A DNA stretch of 34,980 nt from contig JAJYUW010000009.1 in the NCBI GenBank assembly GCA_021792335.1, forward strand, positions 1 to 34,980, in the 5' to 3' direction. The position numbers were made by a program, and so were the translations under genes. The DNA comes from Pseudomonadota bacterium (GTDB taxonomy: Bacteria; Pseudomonadota; Gammaproteobacteria; Burkholderiales; Sulfuricellaceae). Below the pieces are notes generated by a model, which was not told the DNA's origin, made no database searches, and was given only the letters and a program-made list of their open reading frames with translations. How positions within the stretch are numbered: position 1 is the first letter of the stretch; every line of letters begins with the position of its first letter. Below, piece after piece: positions 16,180 to 31,585 of the stretch.

Positions 16180-16668
16180 ATGCGACTGACAACAAAAGGG
16201 CGTTTTGCGGTGACTGCGATGCTCGACCTGGGTTTGCGCCAGGGCGAGGGACCAGTGACGCTGGCCGGGATTAGCGAGCGCCAGAAAATCTCCTTGTCTT
16301 ATCTCGAGCAACTGTTTGGCAAGCTGCGCCGTCATGCCCTGGTGGAGAGCGTTCGCGGACCGGGAGGCGGTTATTACCTTGCCAAGGGGCTGGACGATAT
16401 CGCGGTCTCGGACATTATCAAGGCGGTAGACGAGTCGATCGACGCCACCCAGTGCGGCGGGCTGGGCAACTGCCACGACGAGCACGAGTGCATGACGCAC
16501 GATTTGTGGACCAACCTGAACACCAGGATCTTCGATTATCTGGCCTCTGTCAAATTGTCGCATTTGGTGGCGCAGCAGCGTGGCGTACCCGTGGGCCAGT
16601 TGCATGATGCCGGGGTGGTGCAGAAACGGCGTGGCGAGGTTAAGGCGGATGTTGCCGGCGTATTTTGA
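16180..16668 (+). CDS. iscR: Fe-S cluster assembly transcriptional regulator IscR (Rrf2 family)
   Basis: 'MRLTTKGRFAVTAMLDLGLRQ', cluster-ligand motif 'CGGLGNCHDEHECMTHDLW'. Confidence 0.96.
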   Translation: MRLTTKGRFAVTAMLDLGLRQGEGPVTLAGISERQKISLSYLEQLFGKLRRHALVESVRGPGGGYYLAKGLDDIAVSDIIKAVDESIDATQCGGLGNCHDEHECMTHDLWTNLNTRIFDYLASVKLSHLVAQQRGVPVGQLHDAGVVQKRRGEVKADVAGVF

Positions 16669-17854
16669 CCATAACGCCACCACGCCGCTCAGCGGGCGCG
16701 TGCTGGAGGCGATGCTGCCATACTTCACGGAAAGTTTCGGCAATGCCTCCAGTCGCCACGCCTTCGGCCGGGCGGCGCGCAAGGCGGTAGACGATGCCCG
16801 CGAGCAGGTGGCGGATGCCGTCGGTGCCCACCCATCGCAGGTCTATTTCGTCAGCGGCGGGACTGAAGCCAACAACCTGCTGATCAAGGGCGCGGCGGCC
16901 CGGCTCAGGCCGTCCCAGGCCGCAGTGAGCGCCGTGGAACACCCGTGCGTGATGAAACCGGCCCTGGCGCTGCGTGAGTCAGGCTGGAAGTTCAGGCAGT
17001 TTTCGGTTGATAATGCCGGCCGGCTTGATATGACGGACGTGCAGGCCGCGCTACGAGAGCCAACCGGTCTGGCCTCGGTGATGTTGGCTAACAATGAGAC
17101 TGGTGTGGTGCAGGATGTCGCGACCGTGGCGGAAATGGCGCGGGGTGCGGGCGCAGTTGTCCATACCGATGCGGTTCAGGCGTTTGGCAAGGTGCCGGTC
17201 AGTTTTGCCGATTTGAACGTGCATGCAATGACGCTTTCCGCACACAAGATATATGGACCAAAAGGCATAGCTGCCCTGATTCTGGACAAGCGCATCGACA
17301 TCATGCCGCAGATTATCGGCGGAGGGCATGAGAAGGGTTTGCGCGCCGGTACCGAGAACGTTCCGGCGATTGTCGGTTTTGGCGCTGCCTGCTCCCTGGC
17401 CGTGAGCGGCCTGGGGCGGTCGTCCCTTCAGCTTCAGCCATTACGGGAACGTCTGGATCAGGGGTTGCACGCGATGGGTGCGGTGTTGTTCGGCGCTAGC
17501 GCCGCACGTTTGCCCAATACCAGCTACTTTGCTTTTCCCGGGGTTGATGGTGAAACCCTGGTGATGGCCTTGGATCGTGCCGGATTTGCGGTGGCAAGCG
17601 GGTCTGCCTGTTCCAGCGACAGCACCGAGCCGAGCCCGGTATTGCTGGCCATGGGAGTCGAGCGCGAACTGGCGCGCTGCGCCGTGCGCGTCAGTTTGGG
17701 CAGGGGAAATGATATGGGCCAGGTTGAGCGGTTTTTGCAGGTGCTACAGGAAGAAATCTTCAGGTTGAAGCGGCTAATGACGGTCGCCCCACAAGGGGAC
17801 TCCGATCCGCTGCGAGCCATGAAACAGGCTCGTGCGGGGTCGTATACGCTTTAA
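16649..17854 (+). CDS. NifS-like cysteine desulfurase / class V aminotransferase with repeat-derived C-terminus
   Basis: 'AYFDHNATTPLSGRVLEAMLPYF', PLP lysine 'LSAHKIYGPKG', 'GFAVASGSACSSDSTEPSPVLLAMG'; ATG 16649 overlaps the iscR 3' end. Last ~22 codons lie in a dispersed repeat. Confidence 0.88.
   Translation: MLPAYFDHNATTPLSGRVLEAMLPYFTESFGNASSRHAFGRAARKAVDDAREQVADAVGAHPSQVYFVSGGTEANNLLIKGAAARLRPSQAAVSAVEHPCVMKPALALRESGWKFRQFSVDNAGRLDMTDVQAALREPTGLASVMLANNETGVVQDVATVAEMARGAGAVVHTDAVQAFGKVPVSFADLNVHAMTLSAHKIYGPKGIAALILDKRIDIMPQIIGGGHEKGLRAGTENVPAIVGFGAACSLAVSGLGRSSLQLQPLRERLDQGLHAMGAVLFGASAARLPNTSYFAFPGVDGETLVMALDRAGFAVASGSACSSDSTEPSPVLLAMGVERELARCAVRVSLGRGNDMGQVERFLQVLQEEIFRLKRLMTVAPQGDSDPLRAMKQARAGSYTL
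17782..17845. repeat. Copy of modular hairpin repeat at the 3' end of the NifS-like gene
   Basis: ggtcgccccacaaggggactccgatccgct...gcggggtcgtat; shares the exact 26-mer gccccacaaggggactccgatccgct (17786-17811) with 31028-31053. Confidence 0.85.
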
Positions 17855-30125: not shown

Positions 30126-30983
30126 ATGGCGCGCAGAAACAAACCCGAAGAACATGAGAACCATGAACGCTGGCTGGTTTCCTACGCTGACTTCATTACA
30201 CTGCTGTTTGCATTTTTTGTTGTCATGTACTCGATTTCCCAGGTGAACGAGGGGAAATACCGGGTGCTGAGCGATGCGCTGGTCAATGCCTTCAAGGCTG
30301 CGCCGACGAACACAACCCCGATCGCGCCGGCACTGATGATCGATGCTTCTACCAAGGGCCAGTCAAGCACCGCCAGGTCGCAAGCACAAAAGCAAACGTT
30401 CATCGTGCTCAAGAATGATCCTGCCCAGGAAGCCCGTCAGAAACAGCAAGCAGAAAAAATGAAGGGGATTGCCAGGGATATTCTCAAGGTGATGGAATCC
30501 TTAACCAAGAATGGCCAGGTCAAGGTCAGCCAGAGCGTCCATGGTATCGCCATAGAGATAAATGCCAGTTTGCTGTTCGCATCCGGTCAGGCAAGTCTGG
30601 AGGCCGGTTCGATCAAGGCGCTCAAGGCGGTAGGAAAGGTTCTGGCTGATGTGCCTAATGATATTCAGGTGGAAGGGTTTACCGATACCACCCCGATCAA
30701 TACCGTTGCGTTTCCATCCAACTGGGAGTTATCCAGTGCCCGCGCAAGCAGTGTGGTGCGCTTGTTCGTCGACAGCGGCGTGCCACCGGAGCGTTTGGTG
30801 GCGGTGGGGTATGGTGAATTTCGCCCGATTGATTCCAATAGCACGGCAGAGGGGCGAGCCAGAAACCGCCATGTGACGGTGATGATCCTGTCGGAACAGC
30901 AGGAGAAGATCACCGATATACCGGTTGCGAGCCAGGCTTCCAAAGTTGTGCAGGAAGCAGCTGGTCCTGCCCGGAAACCCTAA
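30126..30983 (+). CDS. motD: Flagellar motor stator protein, MotB family (MotD), OmpA-like C-terminal domain
   Basis: 'ENHERWLVSYADFITLLFAFFVVMYSISQVNEGKYRVLSDAL', OmpA 'VEGFTDTTPINTVAFPSNWELSSARASSVVRLFVDSGVPPERLVAVGYGEFRP'. Confidence 0.95.
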   Translation: MARRNKPEEHENHERWLVSYADFITLLFAFFVVMYSISQVNEGKYRVLSDALVNAFKAAPTNTTPIAPALMIDASTKGQSSTARSQAQKQTFIVLKNDPAQEARQKQQAEKMKGIARDILKVMESLTKNGQVKVSQSVHGIAIEINASLLFASGQASLEAGSIKALKAVGKVLADVPNDIQVEGFTDTTPINTVAFPSNWELSSARASSVVRLFVDSGVPPERLVAVGYGEFRPIDSNSTAEGRARNRHVTVMILSEQQEKITDIPVASQASKVVQEAAGPARKP

Positions 30984-30985
30984 AA

Positions 30986-31082
30986 GGACTCCGACTTTCT
31001 ACGGGCTAAGCCCGTGAAAGGTCGTATGCCCCACAAGGGGACTCCGATCCGCTAGGCGCTAAAACTCCTGCGGAGTCGCATG
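30986..31082. repeat. Tandem pair of modular hairpin repeats between motD and flgN
   Basis: Module A 30986-31028 ggactccgac-[tttctacgggctaagcccgtgaaa]-ggtcgtatg; linker ccccacaagg; module B 31039-31082 ggactccgat-[variable]-gagtcgcatg. Confidence 0.82.
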
Positions 31083-31084
31083 AC

Positions 31085-31585
31085 CTAAACCTTACCGAGA
31101 GGTCGCCCCAGTCCGCTTGTATGGGTCTGTCCGTCCGGCCCGTAAATGCCTGTCTGGTTGGCGGCGGTCTGAAGCAAGGAAAGGGCTTGCTGGTTGAATC
31201 TGAGCTTGGTTTCGATCAGGCTGCCATTGACCTGATTGATCTGTTGAGCGATTTTTGCCTGTTCCAGCAGTTGCTTCCAGGCTTCGACAGTATGCGGTAT
31301 TTCGCCGCCGTGCTGCTGCAGCCATCTGTCCATGCCACCCTGCTCCGGGTTGTGGCCATTTGCGGCCAGATAACGGTTGCGGCGTTCCGCGAACTGAGAC
31401 AGCAGGAGAACCTTCTCGGACTTTAGCCGGGCAAGCTCGATCAGCCTGTCGACATCACCCTGGACCAGTGCTTCCTGCTCGGTCTGTAATACTCGGACGA
31501 AATCACTGAATGCGCTTAATTCCGCATCCACGCTTTGGGAAAGATCGCCGGGGGAGGCGATGATGACCCGGTTGTCAGCCAACAT
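31085..31585 (-). CDS. flgN: Flagellar chaperone FlgN
   Basis: Helical 166-aa protein 'VLQTEQEALVQGDVDRLIELARLKSEKVLLLSQFAERRNRYL'; adjacent to flgM. Confidence 0.88.
   Translation of the reverse strand: MLADNRVIIASPGDLSQSVDAELSAFSDFVRVLQTEQEALVQGDVDRLIELARLKSEKVLLLSQFAERRNRYLAANGHNPEQGGMDRWLQQHGGEIPHTVEAWKQLLEQAKIAQQINQVNGSLIETKLRFNQQALSLLQTAANQTGIYGPDGQTHTSGLGRPLGKV

Follow-up and report, generated by a model that had tools for sequence, protein, structure and literature searches.

The window analysed in this study is a stretch of 34,980 nucleotides from the genome of a Sulfuricella-like betaproteobacterium (2.65 Mb in 262 contigs, 75% complete). Between the convergent genes motD and flgN, it contains an array of two head-to-tail copies of a hairpin family (30978-31082; 51 + 54 nt), which abut without a spacer (Table 1). 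A preliminary description of this DNA had reported two consecutive modules with like ends and unlike cores between these two genes; the modules are present in the sequence, and the location is borne out by the Pfam assignments. Their extent, given here by the family boundaries, was drawn differently: the start of the array had been placed at 30986, which misses the first 8 nt of copy A, and the supposed joiner CCCCACAAGG is the 5' part of copy B rather than a separate element.

Table 1. Hairpin-family copies and neighboring genes in the window.
Feature	Coordinates	Strand	Description	Evidence
Third window copy	17787..17846	+	60 nt; in frame within ORF 16580-17854 (NifS/IscS-like cysteine desulfurase), at its 3' end; encodes ...PQGDSDPLRAMKQARAGSY(TL)	Model match 17789-17847, E 1.4e-10; ORF translation
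motD	30126..30983	+	MotB_plug and OmpA domains; upstream convergent neighbor of the array	Pfam
Copy A	30978..31028	+	51 nt; CCCTAAAAGG + ACTCCGA + outer stem CTTTC/GAAAG + core ACGGGCTAAGCCCGT + GTCGTATG; 3' end TATG	Covariance-model match, E 5e-16
Copy B	31029..31082	+	54 nt; CCCCACAAGGGG + ACTCCGA + outer stem TCCGC/GCGGA + degenerate core + GTCGCATG; 3' end CATG	Model match, E 6e-14
flgN	31085..31585	-	Downstream convergent neighbor of the array	Pfam PF05130

The stop codon of motD (TAA, 30981-30983) lies inside copy A and is supplied by the CCCTAA of that copy. The strand of the array folds better than its dinucleotide shuffles, with z values of -3.7 as RNA and -3.9 as DNA. In several relatives of the same genus that lack the array, i.e., unoccupied orthologues, the motD and flgN stops are 3 to 4 nt apart. 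The closest relative (G006) carries an array at the same site, with another first core and a truncated second unit. Other relatives (L237, L242, L244, and L247) hold differing palindromic repeats in this gap (GGCTTTCGCC-type, CCCGCGAAGGCGGG-type, and GTAGGGGCGAATTGATTCGCGCC), and the gap therefore seems to be a general landing place for hairpin repeats. The array in the window most likely has no function for the host.

From 5' to 3', each unit of the family is composed of a short hairpin (CCC-TAAA-GG or CCCC-ACAA-GGGG; consensus CCCTAAAGG or CCCCACAAGGGG), ACTCCGA, a long stem-loop with a bulged T, and TCGTATG. The outer stem is of three main types (CTTTC/GAAAG, TCCAC/GTGGA, and TCCGC/GCGGA), and the core stem following the bulged T is ACGGGC, ATGGGC, ACGCGC, or one of several others, with a loop that is mostly TGAA or TAAA. 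The conserved fold of the family is CGA-YYYYC-T-A(core)T-G-RRRRR-R-TCG, in which the T is bulged after the outer stem and the stem consists of 13 to 14 pairs with bulges. The GACTCCG/CGGAGTC pairing proposed earlier for copy B is a local alternative and not this fold. Among 90 distinct sequences, 98% of the cells are paired, and changes on both sides are observed in 12 of the 14 pairs, with 195 cells as against 60 expected, a value that none of 500 shuffles reaches. The covariation score is 0.42; it is 0.17 for shuffles and does not exceed 0.09 when the partners are slid. Alignment A2 was fitted to the model, and alignment A1, which was aligned by sequence only, gives the same covariation result. 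The predicted hairpin is thus strongly supported by compensatory change.

The unit length is 51 nt (71 units) or 54 nt (64 units) in 135 of 151 units, and it is a multiple of three in 141 of the 151. The association between outer and core types is not significant (p 0.11), which agrees with the earlier term "modular", but both are associated with 5' hairpin length, so the term is only partly apt. In the 54-nt type, the frames that usually stay open are +0, +2, and two on the reverse strand, and units overall usually have three to four open frames. This count does not exceed that of shuffled sequence, so that no selection on the element itself is needed for coding compatibility. The ends, CCC(T/C).. 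and ..TATG, are not inverted repeats, i.e., there are no terminal inverted repeats. A terminal GTAG is absent from the alignment of 23 units, in which CTA is invariant inside the stem; (G/A)TAG is found only inside the stem, on the reverse strand. The CGTC tag is absent from the consensus. The same genome contains another small hairpin repeat, CCCTACAC...GGGTCGCATAGGACAAGAG, which is nested in the hairpin tip of some copies of the family (L052:1501-1586, which is C129 of this genome, L029, L006, and L012).

The family is clearly not confined to the array. In the genome of the window, a 125-nt query gave 39 blastn matches and covariance model R1, which was built from 23 units, gave 43, numbers well above what chance would give; the genome has about 40 hairpin copies. 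The modular family that the preliminary description had proposed, with constant ends, differing cores, and head-to-tail repetition, is supported, since copies elsewhere, covariation, and reused ends were all found; the family is dispersed, and its cores are compensated. The family is present in all 12 genomes of the genus searched, with 3 to 42 copies each, in six of eight genomes of one sister genus and in neither of two of another; across 39 other families of the order, almost none was found. Among the matches listed in a pattern scan of named genomes are Sulfuricella, Thiobacillus, Sulfuriferula, Hydrogenophilales, and a few other betaproteobacterial assemblies, and these include the isolates Thiobacillus denitrificans RG and Sulfuricella sp. 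T08. There was no match in a plasmid collection, and matches to Rfam were at chance level, far below the gathering score cutoffs. An earlier description of the family was not found in the open literature searched.

Insertion points were located by comparing the joined flanks of single copies with relatives without that copy. A gap-free unoccupied match was obtained for 44 sites, 23 of which are distinct, and GC is at the insertion point in 20 of these 23. Empty sites show no duplication or loss of the target beyond a positional ambiguity of 1 to 2 nt. Examples are GCGCGCGCCATG^CCGCGCG and CCCAAG^CGCCAG in nifJ and GAATTG^CCGCC in ubiH. The base preceding the target G is mostly T or A and never G. 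Each insertion leaves TATG^C at its 3' end; because the unit ends in TATG with the target C next to it, insertion rebuilds the target. Long ORFs (at least 120 aa) harbor the copy at 26 of 44 unique single sites, as against 82% expected for random insertion at G^C, which indicates that insertion is not gene-seeking and that insertions in genes are partly purged and partly tolerated. No bias in the orientation of copies relative to local GC skew was seen, although this is a weak test of coupling to replication. Complementarity between the flanks is slightly above that of re-paired flanks, with at least 8 pairs at 5 of 68 sites compared with 0.3 expected. A preference for landing in the tips of other hairpins is a minor trend that rests on a few host repeats (CTCTCCCGC..GCGGGAGAG).

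Copies were also located inside protein genes. At the position of the element, an 18-residue gap relative to solved homologues is observed in DnaE (L075), UbiH (L036, in the window's own genome), and pyruvate:ferredoxin oxidoreductase (PFOR; L183), and a 15-residue gap is observed in BioD (L198). In MurB (L227), the element is near the N-terminus, ahead of the aligned domain. Pfam or NCBIfam domains span or flank the element in UvrD (two species), RnfC, YicC, a PIN protein, UbiH-like proteins, and a cation P-type ATPase, and the element is between domains in REC-Hpt kinases and Ppx/GppA. In G001, the sole dnaE match carries the element with the frame intact (1193 aa). The third copy in the window encodes the C-terminal tail of the cysteine desulfurase, the profiles of which stop at about residue 400. 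The encoded peptides include PQGDSDPLRAEARAESYA, PHKGTPTFYGLKPVKDRM, AYDSARASARSGSESPCG, and HTIPHGLQPIADRSPLVG; further types are DSDPLRAEAR-type and HTIPHGLQPIADR-type. These peptides are most likely tolerated passengers without a function. The element, which the preliminary description had considered to be possibly a transposable non-coding element, does behave as a transposable element, but it is not simply non-coding, as a substantial share of its copies is in frame in real genes.

The frame is open at 26 of 37 long-ORF sites, as against 58% for random insertion at G^C, which is only suggestive of frame selection in host genes, since overlapping spurious ORFs confuse the choice of frame; some of the long ORFs are spurious in these GC-rich genomes. 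Six cases with a stop in frame were checked, and the clearest is in a transposase-like gene (L187:1651-1703), with a Mu-transpos_C_2 domain just downstream. This copy is apparently an inactivating insertion in a dispensable gene, as would be expected if the element is translated and not bypassed. In a few apparent N-terminal cases (L045 and L046), the copy is probably upstream of the true start.

Head-to-tail orientation is found in 27 of 29 neighboring pairs, and the joint is 0 to 1 nt in 21. Three-unit arrays were observed at L162:6905-7059, L084:1447-1607, and L171:750-910; that of L162 is in frame as LKDSDPLRAEARVESYA x3 within a 381-codon ORF. If tandem duplication on the spot had been the only source of these arrays, each from one ancestral copy and with no insertion into existing arrays, joined neighbors should be alike, as is the case for the almost identical neighbors in a few arrays, e.g., L084 and L065. 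Most joined neighbors, however, are unlike in the length of the 5' hairpin, the outer stem, or the core, as are copies A and B of the window, which argues that the arrays are not mainly local duplications, and single copies have demonstrably been inserted at many unrelated sites; we therefore consider an origin by duplication only to be quite improbable. Exact head-to-tail arrays would instead follow from insertion at a fresh TG^C, i.e., the arrays would grow by insertion at the target rebuilt by the previous copy. Such arrays, together with exact insertion without target duplication and a folded, single-strand-like hairpin with an extrahelical base, would also be features of an integron attC-like cassette end that is mobilized by a tyrosine recombinase and not by a transposase. 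The joints are exact with no cassette between the units, none of the attC core-site motifs considered is visible in the aligned units, and a recombinase neighbor was not identified, and we regard this origin as equally improbable. The recombination cassette of the preliminary description would apply only in the sense of exact, site-specific insertion.

The position of the array between convergent stop codons and its strong folding as RNA would suit a terminator, which the preliminary description had thought to be bidirectional, or an RNA-processing array of the RNase III type. Against this, a scan for a T-run, a terminator-like site, or a promoter site at the array was negative, the array is missing between motD and flgN in several relatives, and copies in both orientations are inside dnaE, uvrD, nifJ, and ubiH, the messages of which would be destroyed; such a role is very unlikely, the least probable of the explanations considered. 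A conventional GTAG-type REP, mobilized by a RAYT (TnpA-REP) enzyme of the genome, would be similar in size, hairpin, irregular stem, and intergenic use, and RAYT genes flanked by GTAGGAGCG-type repeats do exist in this genome. The terminal GTAG is nevertheless absent, its only counterpart being the reverse-strand (G/A)TAG within the stem, and none of the 35 Y1 loci is flanked by the hairpin family. In addition, head-to-tail dimers, which dominate here, are absent or rare in GTAG families (PMC3733652), and the TnpA-REP enzymes tested cut at CT, and one also at CA (PMC8266576), whereas the site here is G^C. This explanation is also unlikely, though marginally less so than the duplication and attC-like origins.

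The explanation that we prefer, and that we consider to be highly probable, is a mobile hairpin element, non-autonomous and 51 or 54 bp long, which inserts exactly at G^C, is tolerated in phase in genes, and would be moved in trans. Sequence comparison shows that it inserts exactly at G^C, has spread to sites that are unrelated to one another, and is tolerated in frame; movement in trans is inferred. With a unit length divisible by three, the element is always in phase when it inserts into a gene. Where an open frame is used, the host gene keeps its reading frame and gains 17 to 18 codons, and copies of this sort have persisted in conserved genes.

An enzyme of the HUH/Y1 type that acts on single-stranded DNA and reads the bulged hairpin is the most likely mobilizing enzyme, a tentative choice to which we would give slightly less than an even chance. 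It is the best guess because the hairpin has a conserved unpaired base, because there is no duplication, and because other RAYT-REP pairs exist in the genome. The E. coli TnpA-REP is known to require an unpaired state in the REP stem (PMC8266576). Against this enzyme type, in a search for PF01797 in 13 genomes, none of the 35 Y1_Tnp loci had a confident copy within 1.5 kb (best match, 13 bits, E 0.39), and a Y1 gene was found in only one of the copy-carrying loci. The G^C target also departs from the CT at which the tested TnpA-REP enzymes cut, and the copies lack an orientation bias. In the window's own genome, Y1 genes are near GTAGGAGCG or GTAGGATGCGG hairpins at L031 (C171), L034 (C225), and L035 (C215), and these have the appearance of usual RAYT-REP pairs that belong to other repeat families. 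A bolder possibility, which we hold to be rather doubtful, is that the element rebuilds its target by its own 3' end (TATG^C) and is moved in trans by a new type of single-strand DNA enzyme, and that its 3n length makes insertion in genes survivable often enough for modules of 17 to 18 codons to be added repeatedly, singly or in arrays, to core proteins.

Among known systems, the family differs from the GTAG and CGTC REPs in its tag, transposase linkage, and dimer orientation and from MITEs in inverted repeats and duplication. Both REP superfamilies are likewise short dispersed hairpins, some of which lie in frame within genes, frequently those for replication and repair, and the CGTC families are likewise without a linked transposase (PMC3733652). 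They favor head-to-head dimers, with negligible head-to-tail ones (PMC3733652), whereas the hairpin family shows the reverse and has neither terminal tag; the CGTC REP has a stem of 8 to 9 bp and a loop of 4 to 5 nt, compared with 13 to 14 pairs with bulges here. REPIN/RAYT elements and the ends of IS200/IS605 share the single hairpin with an unpaired stem base and insertion without target duplication (PMC8266576, PMC3116915), and a short sequence 5' of the hairpin might, speculatively, act as a guide as in these systems. They differ from the hairpin family, which has no linked Y1 gene, has a G^C rather than a CT or tetranucleotide target, and lacks GTAG. ERIC/RU and Correia-type MITEs are also small non-autonomous repeats that are fused in frame to genes (PMC2759123, PMC2229807); unlike the hairpin family, they have terminal inverted repeats, mostly TA duplications, and lengths of 100 to 170 bp.

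The protein-coding palindromic repeats of Rickettsia (Rickettsia palindromic elements, RPEs), Wolbachia, and Methanocaldococcus jannaschii are likewise small palindromes that are intergenic as well as in frame in conserved genes, with no known dedicated transposase (PMC2229807, PMC2996958). Compared by description, RPEs are 105 to 146 bp long with terminal inverted repeats (PMC2229807), whereas the hairpin family is 51 or 54 bp long and has none. The hairpin family is a dispersed palindromic repeat, both intergenic and intragenic, which is in frame in conserved genes and absent from their homologues; it is therefore of the RPE, or intragenic-REP, kind, in kind only and not as an RPE family. 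It is distinguished from the RPE-type repeats by its G^C insertion, its exact head-to-tail arrays, and its sulfur-oxidizing betaproteobacterial hosts.

The spread of protein-coding palindromes and the tolerance or use of their peptides by the host have been studied mainly in the obligate intracellular Rickettsia and Wolbachia. The hosts of the family described here are free-living and include isolates, many of its sites are resolved in the occupied and the empty state, and its target rule is a single dinucleotide; the mechanism, the enzyme, and the consequences for the proteins are therefore directly testable. The finding is also a caution that a mobile element is the source of short in-frame insertions in the core genes of these organisms.
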